The translations under genes were made by a program, and so were the position numbers. The notes under the pieces were generated by a model that saw only the letters and a list, made by a program, of their open reading frames with translations, made no database searches and was not told the origin of the DNA. This document shows, piece by piece, positions 7,796 to 18,911 of a stretch of 50,004 bases of DNA. Location: assembly GCA_022760735.1 (NCBI GenBank), contig JAKELU010000003.1, positions 35,380-85,383 of the forward strand. Reading direction: 5' to 3'. Numbering within the stretch: position 1 is the stretch's first letter; every line of letters starts with the position of its first letter. Source of the stretch: Firmicutes bacterium FC7 (GTDB lineage Bacteria > Bacillota > Clostridia > Tissierellales > Tissierellaceae).

Positions 7796-10465
7796 ATGAA
7801 TATTATCATAAATGGTATTCAATATGAGGTAGAAAAAGGTATTACCATATTAGAGGCATGTAGAAAGGCAGGAATAGATATTCCTACCCTTTGCCATGAT
7901 GATAGACTAGAACCATCCTCTTCCTGTAGAATGTGCCTCGTTGAAATTGAAGGGTCAAAGAAGCTAGTAACATCATGTAGCACATTAGTAAAGGAAAATA
8001 TGGTGGTATATACTCATAGCGCTAGAGTTATGGAAGCCAGAAAGGAAGTATTAGATTTACTTGTATCAAATCATCCTATGGAGTGCTTAACCTGCGCCAA
8101 ATCAGGTAAATGTAAATTGCAGGACTATTGCTATGAATATGGAATAACAGAAGCTAGTTATAAGGGAGCAAGAAGAAAGCCTAAGATTGATACTTCTAAT
8201 CCTTTCTATGATTATGATGCAAGCAAATGTATATTATGTGGCTTATGTATAAGGGTATGTGATGAGCTTCAAGGTACATCCGCAATTGGTTTTGAAAATA
8301 GAGGCTTTGATGTTGTAGTTACAACTCCTTTTAATGAAGGACTGGTAAATTCAAAATGCGTTTCCTGTGGAAACTGTGTATCCGTATGTCCAGTAGGGGC
8401 TTTAACACCTAAGAAACAGACCTACAGACATTGGGAAACTAAGAAGGTAAGAACTACCTGCTCCTATTGTGGTGTAGGATGTCAAATGGATTTAGTTGTT
8501 AAAGAAAACAGGGTAGTAGGGGTAGAGCCTGCTAATGTTGTTCCTAATGACGGTTTACTATGCGTTAAAGGAAAGTTTGCCTATAAGTTCATAAATCACC
8601 CTGATAGATTAAAAACACCATTAATAAAGAGAAATGGCAAGTTTGAAGAAGCTTCTTGGGATGAAGCATATAGATATATAAGAAGAAAGGTAAATGAAAT
8701 AAAGGAAGAAAATGGTCCTGATGCATTTGCAGGTTTAACATCTGCAAGATGTACTAATGAGGAAAACTATTTATTCCAAAAATTATTTAGGGCAGTGATT
8801 GGAACTAATAACGTTGATCACTGTGCACGACTCTGACATTCCTCTACAGTTGCAGGTCTTGCAACAACATTAGGTAGTGGAGCTATGACAAATAGCATAG
8901 GGGAAATTGTAAATACAGATGCAATGTTTGTAATTGGATCAAATACTACGGAAAATCACCCAGTTATAGCTACAAAGATGAAACAAGCTGTAAGAAGAGG
9001 TGCAAAGCTGATTGTAGCTGATCCAAGAAGAATAGAATTAGCAGATTATGCTGATGTTTACCTTCAATTAAAACCTGGTACAAATATTGCTCTACTAAAC
9101 AGTATGATGAACGTAATTCTTGAAAAAGGATTATATGATAAGAAGTTCATAGAAGAAAAATGCGAAAACTTTGAGGAGTTAGTAAAGGTAGTTAAGGAAT
9201 ATACCCCTGAAAGAGCAGCAGAAATCTGTGGAGTTAAGGCTGAGGATATAATCAAGGCTGCAACTATCTACGGTGAAGCAGAGAAGGCTGGAATATATTA
9301 TACAATGGGTATCACCCAGCATACTACAGGAACTAATGGAGTAATGAGTGTTTCAAATCTTGCTCTATTATGTGGTAATGTAGGTAAAGAAAGTGCAGGG
9401 GTTAATCCATTAAGAGGTCAGAACAACGTTCAAGGTGCATGTGATATGGGTGGTCTTCCTGGAGATTTACCTGGATATCAAAAGGTATTTAAGCCTGAAG
9501 TAATTGAGAAGTTTGAGAAAGCTTGGAATACTAAGCTATCATCAAAGGTAGGACTTACTATTCCAGAGATAATGGATGGTGCCGCTGATGGTAGTATTAA
9601 ATTCCTATATATTATGGGAGAAAACCCTATGGTTTCAGACCCTGATATTAACCATGTAAAGCATGCTCTAGAAAATGTTGACTTTTTAGTAGTTCAGGAT
9701 ATATTTATGACTGAAACTGCAGAGTTCGCAGATGTAATTCTACCAGCCGCATCCTTTGCTGAGAAAGATGGTACTTTCTCAAATACAGAAAGAAGAGTTC
9801 AAAGGGTAAGGAAGGCAATAGACCCAGTTGGAGAATCTAAACCTGACTGGAAGATAATTATGGAACTGATGAACTATCTAGGATACAGTAAGAAGTATCT
9901 ACATCCGTCAGATATAATGGATGAAATAGCATCTGTAACACCTTCCTATGCTGGGATTAGTTATGATAGATTGGAAGATGGCGGTATTCAATGGCCTTGT
10001 TTAGATAAAGACCATTCAGGTACAAAATATCTACACAAGGGAAATATAGCAAGAGGAAAGGGCTTGTTTATGCCTTCTGATTACGCAGAGAGTGCAGAAA
10101 CGCCTGATAGGGAATACCCATATCTATTAACAACAGGAAGGATTCTATATCATTATCATACAAGAACCATGACTGGAAAAGTAGATGGTATAAACAAATT
10201 AGCACCATCTTCATATGTGGAGATAAATGAAGAAACTGCTAATAGGCTAGGAATATCTGATGGTGATAGAGTAAGAATAGCATCAAGAAGAGGAGAAATA
10301 GAAACCACTGCTAAAATCACAGAAATCATAGATGATGGAGTGTTATTTATGCCATTCCATTTTGCAGATGGAGCAGCAAATTATTTAACAAACCCTGCAA
10401 GGGATCCAATAGCAAAGATTTCTGAGTTGAAAGTGGCAGCCGTAAAGATTGAGAAGGTGTGTTAA
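7796..10465 (+). CDS. fdhF: Formate dehydrogenase catalytic subunit, selenocysteine-containing, W/Mo-bis-PGD
   Basis: Oxidises formate to CO2 or, in acetogen-like metabolism, reduces CO2. The reading frame runs through an in-frame TGA at 8834-8836, giving 889 residues with selenocysteine at 347. The flanking residues HCARL-U-HSSTVAGL are the exact active-site context of formate dehydrogenases, and a SECIS-like hairpin follows. The N-terminal 240 residues hold NuoG-like clusters ([2Fe-2S], CLTCAKSGKC, CILCGLCIRVC, CVSCGNCVSVCPVG), then CSYCGVGC for the [4Fe-4S] of the catalytic domain. Further on are GENPMVSDPD and the C-terminal cofactor-binding TTGRILYHYHTRTMTG. Start is ATG 7796 with AGGAG upstream, two bases after the previous stop. 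The neighbouring tungstate transporter suggests tungsten at the active site. Automated tools would split this gene at the TGA. Confidence 0.96.
8834..8865 (+). promoter_or_regulatory. Selenocysteine codon with bacterial SECIS hairpin
   Basis: TGA at 8834-8836 is followed 12 bases later by GTTGCA (8849-8854), loop GGTCT (8855-8859) and TGCAAC (8860-8865), a perfect six-pair stem. The GGTCT loop is the same as the apical loop of the Escherichia coli fdhF SECIS bound by SelB, and its distance from the UGA is right. The hairpin lies within coding sequence. Confidence 0.9.
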
Positions 10466-11570: not shown

Positions 11571-12353
11571 ATGGATATAACTAAAAGATATAACATATTG
11601 AAAATTAAAGGGGATTATTCAGAACAAGTGGAGGACTTGGTTATCAATGAATATCCCTTTACTATATTTATAGATGATGAAGAATTAATTACTCTTCTTT
11701 GTACCCCGAGGTCACTAAAGGAACTTGCATTAGGTTTTTTGTATTCAGAAAGCTATATAGATAACATGGATGCTATAGATAGAATTCAATTAGATGAGGA
11801 AAAGGGTAGGATATATATTTATCTAAAATATCGTAAAATACTAAATGAAAAATTAGTAGGCAAAAGGACCATAACCTCAGGCTGTGGCAAAGGTACCGTC
11901 TTTTATAATGTTTTGGATTCTTTTAAGTCAAAGAAAGTCCAGAAATCGTTAACATTAGATGTAGATAATGTGATACAATTAAGTAAAGAGTTTAACCGTA
12001 AATCGGAGCTTTTTCTAAATACTGGTGGTGTACATAGTTGTGCTCTTTGCCAAAAAGATAAAATTATATATTTTGAAGAGGATATTGGAAGGCATAATGC
12101 TTTAGATAAAATTTTAGGTAAGGCTTTTATAGAAGGCATTGATTTATCAGATAAACTGGTTATAACTAGTGGTAGAATTTCCTCAGAAATGCTTATAAAA
12201 ACAGCTAAAAGAGGAATACCAGCAATAATCTCACGTTCGGCTCCTACTAGTCTGGCTATAGATATGGCTAGAGAGTTAAATATATCATTGATAGGATTTG
12301 CAAGAGGCGAAAAAATGAATATTTACACAAATTTTCCGAGCTTAAACTTCTAA
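11571..12353 (+). CDS. fdhD: Formate dehydrogenase sulfurtransferase FdhD
   Basis: FdhD carries sulfur from a cysteine desulfurase to the metal cofactor of formate dehydrogenase, an essential step for activity. The 260-residue protein has the family core TGGVHSCALC and FEEDIGRHNALDKILG, and SGRISSEMLIKTAKRG near the C-terminus. The loop that carries two sulfur-transfer cysteines (CxxC) in E. coli reads TSGCGKG here, with only one cysteine; a second pair, CALC, is found in the conserved region further on. It follows mobA by one base. Family assignment is safe; the active cysteine arrangement is unusual by comparison with the E. coli protein. Confidence 0.92.
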   Translation: MDITKRYNILKIKGDYSEQVEDLVINEYPFTIFIDDEELITLLCTPRSLKELALGFLYSESYIDNMDAIDRIQLDEEKGRIYIYLKYRKILNEKLVGKRTITSGCGKGTVFYNVLDSFKSKKVQKSLTLDVDNVIQLSKEFNRKSELFLNTGGVHSCALCQKDKIIYFEEDIGRHNALDKILGKAFIEGIDLSDKLVITSGRISSEMLIKTAKRGIPAIISRSAPTSLAIDMARELNISLIGFARGEKMNIYTNFPSLNF

Positions 12354-12354
12354 G

Positions 12355-12460
12355 GTCAAGAACTATGAAGCTAAGCCTATAGGTAAAAGGAGAAATCCTA
12401 TTGCCTCCCGTTATTGGAAAGGAAGATATTTACAGCCTTCCTTTAGGCTGATTTTTTTTA
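12355..12460 (+). promoter_or_regulatory. Moco/Tuco-riboswitch-like leader of the tungstate transporter
   Basis: The fdhD-tupA gap folds into a compact RNA. An outer helix pairs AGCCTA (12374-12379) with TAGGCT (12444-12449). Inside is hairpin one: GGTAA (12382-12386) with TTGCC (12401-12405), and AGGA (12388-12391) with TCCT (12396-12399), capped by a GAAA tetraloop. Hairpin two pairs AAAGGAAG (12418-12425) with CTTCCTTT (12437-12444). The segments GGT, GCCTCCC and GGAAAGGAAG resemble my recollection of the Moco RNA motif (Rfam RF01055). Placement between a formate dehydrogenase factor and tungstate uptake genes suits a molybdenum- or tungsten-cofactor sensor. Family assignment was not tested by a covariance search. 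Confidence 0.6.
12433..12459 (+). terminator. Intrinsic terminator, possibly riboswitch-controlled
   Basis: CAGCCT (12433-12438) pairs with AGGCTG (12445-12450) around TCCTTT and is followed by A and eight T. Its arms overlap the 3' strands of the outer helix and of hairpin two in the riboswitch-like leader, so the folds exclude each other, as expected of an attenuation switch ahead of tupA. Confidence 0.75.
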
Positions 12461-12489
12461 CTTATTATAATTTTAAGGAGAGTGGTATT

Positions 12490-13314
12490 ATGAAAAAAGT
12501 ATTTTTAACAGTATTAAGCCTTTTACTAGTTCTATCAATGTTAGTTGGATGTACAAAAGCTAATAAAGAGCCTATAATTCTTTCTACAACAACAAGTACT
12601 CAGGACTCAGGTTTACTTGACTTTTTACTTCCAATATTCACTGAGGATACTGGAATTGAGGTAAAAACCGTCGCAGTAGGTACAGGTAAGGCACTACAAA
12701 TGGGTAGAGATGGTGAAGCAGATATACTATTAGTACATGCAAAATCAGACGAGCTAACATTTGTTGATGAAGGACATGGTACTGAAAGACATGATGTAAT
12801 GTACAACGACTATATTTTAGTTGGTCCAGCTGATGATACATTAGGATTAAAAGCTCAATTTCCAAATGATATAGTTGGAGGACTTAAGGCAATATCAGAA
12901 AATGGAGCAATTTTTGTCTCTCGTGGTGATGATTCTGGTACACATAAGAAAGAATTATCAATATGGAAAGTAGCAGAAATTGAACCTAAAGGAGATTGGT
13001 ATTTATCAGCGGGAGCTGGCATGGGAGAAGTACTTAGAATCGCCAGTGAAAAACAAGGTTATACCATATCAGATAGGGCTACATATCTTTCTCAAAAGGA
13101 TAATTTAGATTTAGAGATAATAATTGAAGGGGATAATAATTTATTTAATCAATATGGAATTATCCCTGTTAATCCAGATAAAAATGACAATATAAATCAT
13201 GAAGGTGCTATGGAATTTATGAATTGGATGATTTCAGAAAAGGGACAAGCACTTATAAAAGAATTTGGTGTTGAAGAATTCGGTCAATCGCTTTTCACAC
13301 CAAATGCTAATTAA
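12490..13314 (+). CDS. tupA: Tungstate ABC transporter substrate-binding lipoprotein
   Basis: Captures tungstate outside the cell and hands it to TupB. The 274-residue protein starts with a lipoprotein signal peptide ending in lipobox LVGC (Cys about residue 21), followed by the TupA signature STTTSTQDSGLLD that binds the oxyanion. SRGDDSGTHKKEL is a second family motif. AAGGAGAGTGG lies upstream of ATG 12490. It is the first gene after the riboswitch-like leader and is separated from tupB by a stable hairpin. TupA proteins prefer tungstate to molybdate; homologous ModA and PstS proteins lack this TTTSTQDSG pattern, so tungstate is the best call. Confidence 0.92.
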   Translation: MKKVFLTVLSLLLVLSMLVGCTKANKEPIILSTTTSTQDSGLLDFLLPIFTEDTGIEVKTVAVGTGKALQMGRDGEADILLVHAKSDELTFVDEGHGTERHDVMYNDYILVGPADDTLGLKAQFPNDIVGGLKAISENGAIFVSRGDDSGTHKKELSIWKVAEIEPKGDWYLSAGAGMGEVLRIASEKQGYTISDRATYLSQKDNLDLEIIIEGDNNLFNQYGIIPVNPDKNDNINHEGAMEFMNWMISEKGQALIKEFGVEEFGQSLFTPNAN

Positions 13315-13446: not shown

Positions 13447-14136
13447 ATGGACTACATATTTCAGGGCTTTATTGAAGCTCTTAAACTTCTAATCTCATTT
13501 GATCCAGAGGTCTTTAAGATAATCATTTTGTCATTATTCGTATCTACAACAGCTACTATTCTTGCCTCATTAATATTTATACCAATAGGGATTTATCTTG
13601 GCTTGAAGAAGTTCAGAGGTAAGAGAATAATCTCAAGGATTATTTATACATCTATGAGTGTTCCTTCTGTTATTGTTGGACTTGTTGTTGCCATATTACT
13701 ATCAAGAAGAGGACCTCTAGGACATCTCGACATTATGTATACGCCTAAAGCTATGATAATTGCACAGACACTTCTAGTAATCCCCTTAATACTTGGACTG
13801 ACATATAATCTTGCAAAGAATAGAGGAACGATAATTGAAAAAGTGGCATTTACCCTTGGTGGTAATTCAATTGATTCAATAATATTAATTATTAGGGAAT
13901 TGAAAGTTGATATATTGGTGAATGTTGCTACATCATTTTCAAGAGCTATTTCTGAAGTTGGAGCAGTAATGATAGTCGGTGGAAATATTAAAGGACATAC
14001 GAGAGTAATTACTACAACAATATCAATGATGAATTCAATGGGAGATTATCCAATGGCAATTGCCCTGGGAATAATTCTTCTCATTATATCATTTGGAATC
14101 AATAGCTTTATATATTCCTACAGTCAGGAGGATTAA
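13447..14136 (+). CDS. tupB: Tungstate ABC transporter permease
   Basis: The membrane channel of the tungstate importer, 229 residues with about five hydrophobic segments. The cytoplasmic EAA-type loop for contact with the ATPase is seen as ATSFSRAISEVGAVMIVGGN. Hydrophobic stretches include IIILSLFVSTTATILASLIF near the N-terminus and MAIALGIILLIISFGINSF at the C-terminus. AGAAGGTG lies before ATG 13447. The gene is 132 bases after tupA, and its stop is one base before the start of tupC. The size and loop match TupB rather than longer ModB fusions. Confidence 0.92.
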   Translation: MDYIFQGFIEALKLLISFDPEVFKIIILSLFVSTTATILASLIFIPIGIYLGLKKFRGKRIISRIIYTSMSVPSVIVGLVVAILLSRRGPLGHLDIMYTPKAMIIAQTLLVIPLILGLTYNLAKNRGTIIEKVAFTLGGNSIDSIILIIRELKVDILVNVATSFSRAISEVGAVMIVGGNIKGHTRVITTTISMMNSMGDYPMAIALGIILLIISFGINSFIYSYSQED

Positions 14137-14137
14137 A

Positions 14138-14770
14138 ATGGAGCTTTATATAGAAAATTTACATAAGAAATATGATGATAAAACTATACTTGATATCCCT
14201 AGATTAAAGATACAAGAAGGAAAAATAACTGGTATAACTGGTTTGAATGGGTCAGGGAAAAGCACACTTTTGAATATTATAGGTGGAATAGATAAGGAAT
14301 TTGAAGGTAGTATTAGATACAACGGTAAATTACTTAACAAAGAAATCGCTACAAATATGACTTATGTATTTCAAAAACCATATCTATTTAGAAGAAAGGT
14401 TTATGATAACATAGCTTATCCATTAAAACTAAGAAAGGTGAATAAAGATAGGATTGAAAAAGCAGTGCAGGAAATATTAGAGAGGTTGGAAATAACTGAT
14501 TTAGTCAATAAAAAAGGACACAAATTGTCCGGAGGAGAAAGTCAAAAGGTAGCCTTAGCAAGAGCTTTAATATTTGAACCAAAGCTGTTATTACTAGATG
14601 AACCAACATCAAATATCGATCCAGAGTCAATAAAGGTTTTAGAAAGAGAAATTGTTAGATTTAATAAGGAAACAAATGGAACAGTTCTTATTGTAACCCA
14701 TAATCTTAATCAGGCTAAAAGAATATGTGATGATATAATTTACCTTAGCTTTGGAAGGGTGGGAAATTAG
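14138..14770 (+). CDS. tupC: Tungstate ABC transporter ATP-binding protein
   Basis: ATPase that powers tungstate import, 210 residues. Walker A GLNGSGKST, ABC signature LSGGESQKVALARAL and Walker B LLLLDEPTS with the H-loop histidine in VTHNLNQAK are all intact. ATG 14138 is chosen because AGGAGG lies eight bases before it; a longer frame from 14093 would start inside tupB. There is no C-terminal TOBE-type regulatory domain, unlike ModC proteins, which is normal for TupC. The stop overlaps the GTG start of moeA by one base. Confidence 0.93.
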   Translation: MELYIENLHKKYDDKTILDIPRLKIQEGKITGITGLNGSGKSTLLNIIGGIDKEFEGSIRYNGKLLNKEIATNMTYVFQKPYLFRRKVYDNIAYPLKLRKVNKDRIEKAVQEILERLEITDLVNKKGHKLSGGESQKVALARALIFEPKLLLLDEPTSNIDPESIKVLEREIVRFNKETNGTVLIVTHNLNQAKRICDDIIYLSFGRVGN

Positions 14771-15996
14771 TGGATTTTTTTAATGTAATAACTATAGATG
14801 AGGCAAATGAAATAATAGGTAAGCACTTCTCCAATTATGAGTTTGAAATTGAAGAAGTTAATATATTAAAGGCAACTAATAGAATCTTAGCGGAGAATAT
14901 TGTATCAGAAATTGATGTGCCAGAGTTCAACCGTTCAACTGTAGATGGCTATAGTATTATAGCTGAAGACAGTCATGGGGCAACGGCTTCTATTCCAAGC
15001 ATGTTGTCGCTAATAGGTGAAGTTAGGATGGGAGAAAGGCCTAAAGCAGATATAGTTAGTGGTCAAGCAATTTATACTCCAACAGGAGGGATGCTTCCTC
15101 TAAGTGCAACTGGAGTAATTATGATTGAAAATACAGAGTTAATAGATGATGAAACTCTATTATTATATAAACCAATATCCAAAGGTGAAAATATTATTTT
15201 CAAGGGAGATGATATTAAAAAAGGAGAGATAGCCCTTAAGAAGGGGAGAAAGCTTAATCCTGAGGCTATTGGAGTTTTAGCAAGTCTTGGGATTTTTAAG
15301 GTAAAAGTATATAGAAAGCCTAGATTTTATATAATTTCAACTGGTGATGAAATAATTGATATAGGTGAAGAACTGACTTTTGGTAAGGTTAGAGATATAA
15401 ATTCCTATGCGTTATATGCTTTAATAGAAAAATTAGACTGTGAAGTTGTAGGAAGAAATATTGTAAAGGATGATTATGAACTCTTAAAAACAGAAGTTGA
15501 AAAGGGGATTAAATTAGCAGATATAGTATTACTTTCAGGAGGAAGTTCAGTTGGTACAAGGGATTATACAGATAGGGTCATTGATTCCTTTGAAGGTAAA
15601 GGTGTGCTAATTCATGGACTAGCCATTAAACCAGGAAAGCCAACTATTGTTGGAGAAGGCAATGGTAAGCTTATTATAGGCCTACCAGGTCACCCGGTTT
15701 CATCAATAGTTGTATTTAAAGCTATAGTTGAAGAATATATAAGAAGGAAGTTAGGTAATAATGAAATATTACCTCAAGTTAAGGCAATAACTGAATACAA
15801 TTTTCCATCATCTCCAGGAAAGACAACTTATCATATGGTAAGATTGCGACAGGAAGGCAGTACATATTATGCAACTCCAACCTTTGGGAAATCAGGAATG
15901 ATATCCTTATTATCTGAGTCACAGGGATATATTGTCATAAAGGAGCATGAAGAAGGAATAAATAAGGGAGAAGAGAGAGTTGTGTACTTATTATGA
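14770..15996 (+). CDS. moeA: Molybdopterin molybdenumtransferase MoeA
   Basis: Inserts molybdate or tungstate into adenylated molybdopterin. The 408-residue protein has the MoeA N-terminal part with VPEFNRSTVDGYSI, the MPT-binding domain with STGDEIIDIGEEL and LSGGSSVGTRDYT, and IIGLPGHPVSSIVVFKAI before the C-terminal barrel domain. The start is GTG 14770, overlapping the tupC stop as TAGTG, so translation is probably coupled. A second MoeA-like gene follows directly. With tungstate as the likely imported metal, one of the two may serve tungsten insertion; which one cannot be told. Confidence 0.93.
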   Translation: MDFFNVITIDEANEIIGKHFSNYEFEIEEVNILKATNRILAENIVSEIDVPEFNRSTVDGYSIIAEDSHGATASIPSMLSLIGEVRMGERPKADIVSGQAIYTPTGGMLPLSATGVIMIENTELIDDETLLLYKPISKGENIIFKGDDIKKGEIALKKGRKLNPEAIGVLASLGIFKVKVYRKPRFYIISTGDEIIDIGEELTFGKVRDINSYALYALIEKLDCEVVGRNIVKDDYELLKTEVEKGIKLADIVLLSGGSSVGTRDYTDRVIDSFEGKGVLIHGLAIKPGKPTIVGEGNGKLIIGLPGHPVSSIVVFKAIVEEYIRRKLGNNEILPQVKAITEYNFPSSPGKTTYHMVRLRQEGSTYYATPTFGKSGMISLLSESQGYIVIKEHEEGINKGEERVVYLL

Positions 15997-16057
15997 GATG
16001 GGCAGAATTGACCTACTATCGGAAGAATCTCGGGTTTGAATTTGGGAGGAGGATTTT

Positions 16058-17944
16058 ATGGATAGGAATACATATATAGATAATATTGATGTGGAGACAG
16101 CTAAGGAGAAATACTTTGACAAAATAAAAACAAAACTGTATTATGAAGAAGTAAAAGTTAGTGATTCTTTAAATAGAATTACATTTGAACCTATATATGC
16201 AAGAATTTCATCTCCAAATTATAATGCGGCAGCAATGGATGGAATAGCTGTAATATCTAAGAATACAGACAAAGCATCAGAGAACAATCCACTAACCTTA
16301 GAAATTAACAAGGATTGTATATACGTAAATACTGGCAATCAAATAATGGACCCATATGATGCTGTAATCATGATTGAAGATGTTATTCAGCTTGGTGAAG
16401 GAAAGGTCCAAATACTTAAAGCTGCATACCCTTGGCAACATATAAGGCAAATAGGAGAGGATATAGTTGCAACGGAGATGATAATTCCATCCAACCATAA
16501 AATCAGACCGATTGACTTAGGCGCACTCATTTCTGGTGGTATTGAAACCTTAAAAGTATATAAAAAGCCTAGAGTAGGAATTTTGCCAACTGGATCTGAA
16601 ATAGTAGAGGATATAAGTGAGATTAGAGATGGAAAAATCATAGACTCCAATTCAAGAGTATTCGAAGGCATGATAAAAGAATTAGGAGCAATACCAAATA
16701 GATATGCACCCCAGATAGATGATTATAATTTACTTAAAGAAAGTATCTTAAAAGGCGTTGAGGAGAACGATATTCTTCTAATAAACGCTGGCTCATCTGC
16801 AGGAACTAAGGATTTTACAGTAAATCTAATAAGAGAGCTAGGAGAAGTTGTTATACATGGTATTGCGATGAAGCCTGGGAAACCAACTATACTAGGAATT
16901 ATAAATAACAAACCTGTTATAGGTATACCTGGGTATCCTGTCTCTGCATTTTTAGTTATGGATACATTTGTTAAACCTTTAATTCAAAAGTATATTGGTA
17001 TAGAGGAAGTTGAACCTGAGTACATTAAAGCTCAGTTATCACGAAGAATAGTTTCATCATTAAAACATAAGGAATTAGTAAGGGTTAACCTAGGCTATGT
17101 TAATGAAAAGCTTATAGCTACACCTCTTTCTAGTGGAGCAGGTGTAAGCATGTCATTGGTCAAGGCTGATGGAATCGCAATAATTCCAAGAAATACTGAA
17201 GGTATGGAAGCTGGTCAAATGATAGATGTAGAGCTTTTAAAACCCATAAATAGCATTAAAAAATCCTTGGTATCCATAGGAAGTCACGATTTAATCATGG
17301 ATGTTATTGGGGACATGCTAAAATTAACCTCTAGCCATGTTGGAAGCCTTGGGGGTATAATGGCAATAAAAAGAGGTGAATGCCATATAGCACCAATCCA
17401 TCTTTTAGATATGGATACTGGAGAATATAATATTAGCTATGTTAAGAAATACTTTCCAAATAAGAGAATGGCTCTCATAAAAGGAGTCCAAAGACAACAA
17501 GGCTTTATTGTAAAAAAGGGCAACCCAATGAAGATAAAGGACTTTAAGGATTTACTTAGAAGTGATATAGTATACGTTAATAGACAAAGAGGTGCTGGTA
17601 CAAGGGTACTGTTAGACTATCATCTTGGTATAAATCATATTGATTCATCTCAGATAAGAGGATATCAAAGAGAGTTAAATACTCATATGGCAGTTGCCAC
17701 AGCAGTTGCTACAGGTTCTGCATCCACCGGTTTAGGTATTTATTCAGCTGCTAAGGCAATGAATTTAGATTTCATAAAAGTTGCATATGAGGATTATGAC
17801 TTCCTTGTAACCTTTGACCTATTAGAAGATGATAGAATAAAGAAATTTATAGATGTTATTAAATCGGATAAATTTAGAGATATCCTGCAATCTCTAGGTG
17901 GGTATGGATTTAAGAATACTGGAGAGATAATTATAATAGATTGA
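16058..17944 (+). CDS. MoeA-like protein fused to a periplasmic-binding-protein-like domain
   Basis: A 628-residue fusion. Residues 1-410 are a second MoeA homologue: NYNAAAMDGIAV in the N-terminal part, LPTGSEIVEDISEI and NAGSSAGTKDFT in the MPT-binding domain, and IGIPGYPVSAFLVMD before the C-terminal domain. Residues from about 415 form a PBP-like domain (Pfam PBP_like type) with SHVGSLGGIMAI, NRQRGAGTRVLLDYHLG and ATGSASTGLGIY, resembling oxyanion-binding proteins but with no signal peptide, so it is cytoplasmic. Such fusions are known in Clostridia and archaea. It could sense or deliver the metal oxyanion to the MoeA part; that is an inference. GGGAGGAGG lies before ATG 16058. Confidence 0.9.
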   Translation: MDRNTYIDNIDVETAKEKYFDKIKTKLYYEEVKVSDSLNRITFEPIYARISSPNYNAAAMDGIAVISKNTDKASENNPLTLEINKDCIYVNTGNQIMDPYDAVIMIEDVIQLGEGKVQILKAAYPWQHIRQIGEDIVATEMIIPSNHKIRPIDLGALISGGIETLKVYKKPRVGILPTGSEIVEDISEIRDGKIIDSNSRVFEGMIKELGAIPNRYAPQIDDYNLLKESILKGVEENDILLINAGSSAGTKDFTVNLIRELGEVVIHGIAMKPGKPTILGIINNKPVIGIPGYPVSAFLVMDTFVKPLIQKYIGIEEVEPEYIKAQLSRRIVSSLKHKELVRVNLGYVNEKLIATPLSSGAGVSMSLVKADGIAIIPRNTEGMEAGQMIDVELLKPINSIKKSLVSIGSHDLIMDVIGDMLKLTSSHVGSLGGIMAIKRGECHIAPIHLLDMDTGEYNISYVKKYFPNKRMALIKGVQRQQGFIVKKGNPMKIKDFKDLLRSDIVYVNRQRGAGTRVLLDYHLGINHIDSSQIRGYQRELNTHMAVATAVATGSASTGLGIYSAAKAMNLDFIKVAYEDYDFLVTFDLLEDDRIKKFIDVIKSDKFRDILQSLGGYGFKNTGEIIIID

Positions 17945-17954
17945 TGGTGAAAAT

Positions 17955-18911
17955 ATGAAAGACTCCTTTGGAAGAGAGATTAATTACCTTAGAATCTCGT
18001 TAACTGATAGATGCAATCTAAGATGTGAATATTGTATGCCTGAGAAGGGTGTAGACAAGCTTCAACATGAAGACATTTTAACTTTAGAGGACATGTTTGA
18101 GCTAGTTAAAGTATTTGTTGAATTAGGAATAAATAAGATTAGATTAACTGGTGGAGAACCTCTAGTAAGGCTTGGTGTTGTAGATTTTATATCTAAAATA
18201 TCAAATCTAAATGGTATTAAGGAAATAACCATGACTACAAATGGAGTCTTATTAAAGGATTATGCACAGGAATTAAAGAAGGCTGGATTAAATAGGATAA
18301 ATATTAGTTTGGATACCTTGGACAAGGATAAATATAAGGAAATTACTAGGGGTGGGGATCTTTATAAGGTTCTAGATGGGATAGAAGCTGCTAGGGAAGC
18401 TGGACTTACACCAATAAAGATAAATACAGTATTGATTGGTGGTTTTAATGAGGATGAGATTCCTAAAATGGTCAATTTAACTAGGGAACATAATATGGAT
18501 GTAAGGTTTATTGAGCTTATGCCTATAGGTGAAGCGGCAGCTTTTGCAAGTCATAAATTTATTCCAAATAGCAAGGTTTTAGAATCAGTAAAGGTGCTTA
18601 AAAGAGTAGAGAACGAAGACAAATCATCTCCTGCAACATATTTTAAATTACCTGATGGTAAGGGCAAGGTTGGAATTATAAATCCAATTTCTTGTAAGTT
18701 CTGTTCAAATTGTAATAGAGTTAGGCTTACATCAACAGGAAAACTTAAGCTATGCCTTCATTCTAATAGGGAAATTGACTTAAGAAAACCACTAAAAAAT
18801 AAAGAGGATATTAAAACAATTATAAGTGATGCAATACTTTCAAAAGAAGAGGAACATCACTTGGAAGATAAGAAATATATAACCCGAAATATGAATCAGA
18901 TAGGGGGATAA
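17955..18911 (+). CDS. moaA: GTP 3',8-cyclase MoaA
   Basis: Radical SAM enzyme that starts molybdopterin synthesis from GTP. The 318-residue protein has the SAM cluster motif CNLRCEYCMPE near residue 23, TGGEPLVR, and the second, C-terminal cluster motif CKFCSNCNRVRLTSTGKLKLC that holds the GTP-binding [4Fe-4S]. The C-terminus ends in Gly-Gly, the dipeptide known to be needed for MoaA catalysis. The start at ATG 17955 has GATGGTGA upstream. It is followed one base later by the moaC fusion. Confidence 0.96.
   Translation: MKDSFGREINYLRISLTDRCNLRCEYCMPEKGVDKLQHEDILTLEDMFELVKVFVELGINKIRLTGGEPLVRLGVVDFISKISNLNGIKEITMTTNGVLLKDYAQELKKAGLNRINISLDTLDKDKYKEITRGGDLYKVLDGIEAAREAGLTPIKINTVLIGGFNEDEIPKMVNLTREHNMDVRFIELMPIGEAAAFASHKFIPNSKVLESVKVLKRVENEDKSSPATYFKLPDGKGKVGIINPISCKFCSNCNRVRLTSTGKLKLCLHSNREIDLRKPLKNKEDIKTIISDAILSKEEEHHLEDKKYITRNMNQIGG

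Follow-up and report, generated by a model that had tools for sequence, protein, structure and literature searches.

A predicted P3-lacking Moco/Tuco riboswitch whose 5′ half is the coding end of fdhD

Moco RNAs (Rfam family RF01055) are an established riboswitch class in which the stems P1, P2, P4 and P5 are combined with a conserved core, P4 carrying a GAAA loop and P2 a tetraloop receptor; transport and cofactor genes lie downstream, and terminators serve as expression platforms (Regulski et al. 2008, PMC2408646, main text). According to the same text, 58 of 176 Moco RNAs are devoid of P3, and 17 of the 19 organisms with such P3-lacking ('Tuco') RNAs possess genes for tungsten-cofactor metabolism. 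It also reports that deletion of P3 from the Escherichia coli Moco RNA disrupted control, and it presents the tungsten specificity of the P3-lacking RNAs as the authors' hypothesis, drawn from association only. A riboswitch can also be interlocked with the translation of another reading frame, as in the B12 riboswitch of Mycobacterium tuberculosis ppe2, where, in the passages of PMC11260477 that describe it, the switch acts on translation of an upstream ORF (uORF) on which ppe2 depends by termination-reinitiation.

The element described here shares with the Moco RNAs these stems, the core, the type of downstream gene and a terminator platform, and with the Tuco subtype both the deletion of P3 and the tungstate-uptake-like genes that follow; no structural difference from Tuco was seen. 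What distinguishes it from RF01055 is that half of the aptamer is coding sequence. Unlike the ppe2 system, it contains the end of a full-length enzyme gene within the aptamer and uses a terminator as its platform. A word search of the main text of PMC2408646 returns neither 'fdhD' nor 'overlap', and the overlap is not described in passages of PMC11260477, PMC9943018, PMC3519856, PMC5651825 and PMC13390414. The class is already known; for a conserved overlap of riboswitch and fdhD, in which a tertiary-contact bulge also serves a full-size enzyme gene as its stop codon, we found no account in the open-licence literature searched or in the main text of the founding paper.

Architecture and genomic setting of the riboswitch

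The window, that is, the whole stretch of 50,004 nucleotides of Firmicutes bacterium FC7 that was analysed, contains RF01055 as the sole Rfam family at the gathering threshold. The match spans positions 12322-12440 of the plus strand and the whole model (1-135), and scores 74.5 bits (E value 2.8e-16) where the gathering score is 36. The initial annotation had suggested a Moco/Tuco-like RNA from position 12355 onwards and proposed a covariance-model search as its test. The class is borne out by this match, far above the gathering score, and by conservation in orthologues, while the start has to be moved upstream, since the Rfam limits begin at 12322 and the main helix has its first P1 base at 12332.

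The main paired core extends from 12332 to 12426. The 5′ strand of P1 (UUUUCC, 12332-12337) pairs with 12421-12426, and is followed in the Rfam structure by the 5′ strand of P2 (12340-12350); both strands lie within fdhD codons. The trinucleotide UAA at 12351-12353 serves both as the fdhD stop codon and as the bulge left unpaired in the tetraloop receptor of P2 (CUAAG), and CTAA is invariant in 35 of 35 alignment rows. P4 with its GAAA tetraloop (12381-12406) corresponds to the GNRA-capped hairpin already recognised in the initial annotation, and the conserved segments singled out there, GCCUCCC and GGAAAGG, are likewise confirmed. P5 (CC/GG, 12407-12417) is placed by the Rfam alignment in the conserved GCCUCCC...UUGG segment, and the conserved core GGAAAGGAAG spans 12416-12425. 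There is no P3 stem, the P3 columns being deleted in the alignment. Downstream, the intrinsic terminator CAGCCU-UCCUUU-AGGCUG (hairpin 12433-12450) and the T run ATTTTTTTTA extend over 12433-12460, in line with the overlapping terminator reported earlier in front of the tungstate-uptake genes, and only one of 200 shuffled sequences folds as well as the leader (z -2.83). A terminator also follows the aptamer in 34 of 36 orthologous leaders; the terminator finder overlooked two of them (L117, L149), and the hairpins it picked are doubtful in some others (L100, L140, L141).

From these features the element is predicted to be an RF01055 Moco/Tuco riboswitch. Its ligand would be the tungsten (or molybdenum) cofactor, an assignment in which Tuco itself stands for a correlation (PMC2408646, main text). 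The genome holds a second, weak RF01055 match (C1:120400-120510, or L092 4001-4111) that scores 36.6 bits against the gathering score of 36. It sits between a MoaD-like gene and a pair of ferredoxin-type and aldehyde ferredoxin oxidoreductase genes, and by preceding the latter it resembles Tuco.

The genes on either side, all on the plus strand, belong to the synthesis, use and transport of molybdenum and tungsten cofactors. Upstream, fdhD (formate dehydrogenase accessory sulfurtransferase, 11571-12353), whose frame and stop were read directly, matches PF02634 (E 1.6e-83) and TIGR00129 (216.6 bits, cut-off 140.9). The first gene downstream encodes a tupA-like tungstate-binding protein (12490-13314; PF12849), for which the top NCBIfam model, NF041772 TupA, stays below its cut-off (242.6 bits versus 400). 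It is followed at 13447-14770 by a tupB-like permease, above the cut-off of NF038017 (210.3 bits versus 100) and below that of NF041773 TupB (177.5 bits versus 320), together with an ABC ATPase called from its reading frame alone and termed tupC by position; the tup-like genes thus score below the equivalog cut-offs. Two moeA-type genes and moaA complete the series (14770-18911). TIGR00177 exceeds its cut-off in both moeA-type genes, NF011068 in the second only, and TIGR02666 MoaA exceeds its cut-off as well. The two moeA-type genes stand in tandem (14770-17944), the second being longer with an extra C-terminal part (NF011068). The genes fdhF-mogA-mobA-fdhD, the riboswitch and tupABC-moeA-moeA-moaA are probably transcribed as one polycistronic mRNA. 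Within fdhF, an in-frame TGA at 8834-8836 (context VDHCARL-U-HSS) very probably encodes selenocysteine, because the frame with the TGA read through gives a formate dehydrogenase of 889 residues.

Register, sequence constraint and history of the fdhD overlap

The conserved overlap with fdhD was absent from the initial annotation. The last codons of the gene, AAT TTT CCG AGC TTA AAC TTC TAA, provide in turn P1, the junction CCGAGC, P2 and the bulge of the receptor, and UUUCCGAGC is translated as Phe-Pro-Ser within the end of FdhD. A survey of the order (60 genomes, namely the organism's own and 59 relatives, at least 36 of them with RF01055 under stricter filters) yielded 62 matches, that is, 61 among the matches listed plus the second copy of the genome itself; these counts are lower bounds because the stricter filters omitted that weak second copy. 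A recognised fdhD-like gene lies within 400 nt upstream of 21 of the 62, and in 20 of these its stop falls at +32 of the Rfam start. For 19 the gene is directly upstream with the stop exactly at +32; the twentieth (L040) is cut by the contig end and is a clear FdhD fragment. The exception (L045) is an FdhD-like gene of 31% identity that ends 246 nt upstream of the aptamer.

An exact pattern scan of 84,980 species genomes, which misses variants of the pattern, identified 28 loci. In 23 of them FdhD ends in the aptamer, two have an aptamer but lack FdhD within the stretch fetched (L132, L146), and three are archaeal matches without FdhD (Methanovirga; L125, L129, L135), which were left out. The merged set comprises 35 distinct aligned aptamers, 33 of them with fdhD, three of these genes being contig-end fragments. 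In 32 of the 33 distinct pairs the receptor UAA is the in-frame fdhD stop; in the remaining one, from Peptoclostridium litorale (L138 1991-2100), a UAG stands directly after CCG-AGC, inside P2, and the aptamer is kept. Further carriers include Tepidibacter formicigenes, Sporosalibacterium faouarense, Thermohalobacter berrensis and [Clostridium] ultunense, and the overlap is retained where FdhD is only 40-43% identical to that of the window (L138, L141).

The overlap is not a general habit of Moco riboswitches, an idea we rejected on two grounds. For the other 41 of the 62 order matches, no visible upstream frame (at least 60 codons, within 400 nt) reaches more than 6 nt into the Rfam limits. 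At the level of the phylum (398 genomes, at least 220 with RF01055 under strict filters), 90 matches from 90 genomes were examined, comprising 30 fetched loci and 60 picked by eye, one per genome, among the best-scoring matches listed; in none of these 90 does a convincing gene extend 10 nt or more into the aptamer. Three frames of only 82-86 codons (L182, L191, L223) do end 32 to 117 nt inside, and we regard them as spurious by their length. At least three of the 90 follow fdhD (L167, L204 and L224, the last two from one genus); in these the gene stops 149, 43 and 41 nt short of the aptamer.

The shared sequence is constrained as RNA. Across the 35 aligned aptamers the Rfam structure is paired in 84.3% of cells versus 77.6 in shuffles, and its covariation score, computed on a structure lacking one P2-tip pair, is 0.296. 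Shuffles average 0.172, none of the 500 reaching the observed value, and slid structures give 0.062-0.176; the pairing expected in orthologous leaders by the earlier proposal is therefore conserved. P4 is paired in 93.7% of cells, with changes on both sides in seven of 11 pairs. For P2, whose 5′ strand is coding, changes on both sides affect eight of 10 pairs and 75.1% of cells are paired, the middle and distal pairs fitting less well, with the P2-tip helix at 41.9%. P1 is paired in 98.6% of cells and has one-sided changes only.

Constraint at the nucleotide level is visible in the choice of codons in 29 overlapping genes (leaving aside L116, L138 and the short fragments L119, L124, L147 and L149). 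At the overlap site, Pro is CCG in 26 of 26 cases versus eight of 140 for Pro elsewhere in these genes (p 5e-33), Ser is AGC in 24 of 29 versus 63 of 555 (p 1e-18), and Phe is TTT in 28 of 28; these p values treat the genes as independent, and overstate that independence because the genes are related. Among 117 other testable codon columns there is none that reaches the homogeneity of the Pro and Ser columns, and the Tyr column close by shows less homogeneity than would be expected.

FdhD proteins with and without an aptamer were also compared. Thirty FdhD loci were fetched, 29 of them reaching the C-terminus, and 17 of these end in an aptamer while 12 have none. Among the 12, all except the longer L120 end 7-9 residues after a conserved NIY/NVY motif, versus eight residues where the aptamer is present; the end point is similar and the residues differ, which implies that the aptamer lies on the usual C-terminal codons of FdhD. 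One gene without an aptamer (L106, genome G039) retains Phe-Pro-Thr-Leu in ordinary codons and has apparently lost the aptamer.

Traces in the opposite direction are also found. Three of 42 aptamers without an overlapping fdhD (L043, L061, L078) have FdhD-tail-like codons in place, where the background rate would give 0.13. What remains of the coding sequence for the FdhD tail is present in L061 (G013), L043 (G034) and L078/L146 (G020), and fdhD is located elsewhere in those genomes; G013 has an intact fdhD about 6 kb upstream of the aptamer, and its sister in the tree, G019, keeps the overlap (100/100 support). A separate arrangement is seen in L132 (about 1250-1700, JAAZMG010000113.1), where tandem Moco/Tuco-type aptamers, each with its own terminator, precede a tupA-like lipoprotein gene. 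No FdhD occurs in that stretch, and both aptamers read NxYxxFPSLxF.

Mapped on an FdhD tree from which the fragments L119, L124, L147 and L149 were left out, the overlap needs seven changes of state versus 12.8 for shuffled labels, also when L116, a chance CGAG, is relabelled as non-overlapping. This fits one gain and several losses but does not prove a single origin, given that the tail columns were retained for the tree and 13 of its forks are open. The overlap is most likely an old one that has become locked in, since undoing it would need a simultaneous change of reading frame and aptamer.

Switching, and what the overlap may mean

Two mutually exclusive folds are predicted for the leader, as had been noted previously, and both are energetically plausible. 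In the first, the core takes part in the junction and in the 3′ strand of P1; in the second it is the 5′ strand of an antiterminator (12418-12444), in which AAAGGAAG (12418-12425) forms eight Watson-Crick pairs with CUUCCUUU (12437-12444), worth -7.0 kcal/mol alone. The minimum-energy fold of the full leader contains aptamer P1 together with the terminator at -36.7 kcal/mol; forcing the antiterminator gives -32.5 kcal/mol and breaks both. For an RNA that ends at 12444, before the 3′ arm of the terminator, the canonical P1 fold has -27.1 and the full antiterminator -28.7 kcal/mol, the free minimum of -29.1 kcal/mol combining a shifted P1 with a shortened antiterminator; ligand contributions are excluded from all of these values.

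That P1 and the terminator coexist while the antiterminator breaks both points to ligand-dependent termination, as expected for an uptake operon, and the cofactor should switch uptake off, a direction read from these models. With little ligand the antiterminator would be favoured first: the core would pair with the 5′ side of the terminator, disrupting P1 and the terminator, and transcription would continue. With plentiful cofactor the aptamer would bind, P1 would hold GGAAGA and the terminator at 12433-12450 would form, so that the upstream formate dehydrogenase genes would be made while tungstate uptake and cofactor synthesis would not.

Much of this layout recurs in relatives. Complementarity of 6 nt or more between the core and the 5′ side of the terminator occurs in 27 of 34 leaders with a 10-nt core and in 30 of 34 with a longer core, compared with 2.4 of 34 in shuffles. 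When cores are set against terminators from other species, 79% of the cross pairs still match, which makes the antiterminator a shared motif; species-specific covariation of core and terminator was not found among the 34 leaders with this cross-species control. The free minimum-energy fold lacks the terminator in four of the 34 leaders and P1 in six.

The opposite logic, an ON switch in which binding would form an outer helix that keeps the terminator from folding, had been drawn in the initial annotation, and a fold of 12355-12460 alone does contain such a helix. That segment is, however, short of the conserved 5′ half of the aptamer, the RF01055 P1 (12332-12337/12421-12426) is compatible with the terminator, and the product would be expected to repress the uptake genes. 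The helix in question appears to be 12374-12379/12444-12449, which belongs to the minimum-energy fold of 12355-12460, without the 5′ strands of P1 and P2; it encloses the antiterminator, goes with it and is not P1. The inverted logic arose because the leader was cut at the fdhD stop, losing both 5′ strands, and we rejected it on the full-leader folds, leaving it a very slim chance. More generally, a leader trimmed at an upstream stop codon can lose half an aptamer and mimic inverted logic.

As to the overlap itself, the reading that it is an artefact, with fdhD truly ending upstream of the aptamer, is next to impossible: we found no point in its favour, 33 distinct genes are open into the aptamer, with their stop lying 5 to 8 residues beyond the conserved NIY and two more, and the aptamer-free FdhDs end at much the same distance. 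It is probable that this is an ordinary riboswitch whose overlap was frozen by accident from a single ancestral arrangement and has no regulatory meaning. The want of a convincing overlap in the 90 phylum matches, taken from the best-scoring listed, agrees with such an accident, as do the pattern of gain and losses on the tree and the survival of the aptamer after the loss of fdhD. The exact register in 32 of 33 pairs sits less easily with it, and so does the moved stop of P. litorale, which, with the aptamer intact, implies that the register is not strictly forced.

An alternative that we consider rather unlikely gives the overlap a function. A ribosome finishing fdhD would cover the 5′ strands of P1 and P2, the aptamer would fold only after its departure, and translation of fdhD would favour read-through into the tup genes; translation would then be a second input beside the cofactor, and selection for this gating would keep the overlap. 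Ribosome-mediated attenuation is known from the trp and tna leaders, and the likeness is that the position of a ribosome could choose between two RNA folds; the difference is that the element of the window has no leader peptide, and gating by fdhD translation is a model.

When the region covered by a ribosome on the fdhD stop, which we take to be roughly 12336-12366, is blocked, the fold of the window's leader flips from terminator to antiterminator (-27.1). Of the 34 leaders, 30 have the terminator in their minimum-energy fold when free, 28 with a control block on the first 13 nt and 19 with the ribosome on the stop, and the persistence of the overlap in FdhDs as divergent as those of L138 and L141 points the same way. 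However, those 19 leaders retain the terminator when blocked, footprint and timing are assumed values, and lock-in explains the persistence too. Moreover, aptamers whose fdhD is gone or elsewhere still exceed the gathering score (L043 76.4, L061 68.2, L078 56.7 bits), which implies that translation over the aptamer is dispensable. The blocked folds are suggestive only. A dual-function aptamer, in which the sequence of the cofactor pocket is also translated and a ribosome terminating at the receptor UAA gates folding, seems to us a shade more doubtful still.

We are confident in the preferred reading as a whole, namely a P3-lacking Moco/Tuco OFF switch between fdhD and the tup genes, with a coding 5′ half and an old, locked-in overlap. 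The overlap provides a natural setting, with natural separations of gene and aptamer as controls, for asking whether a translating ribosome can gate an aptamer. If the dual-function aptamer were true, tungstate uptake would be set by the level of the cofactor together with the translation of a formate dehydrogenase maturation gene.
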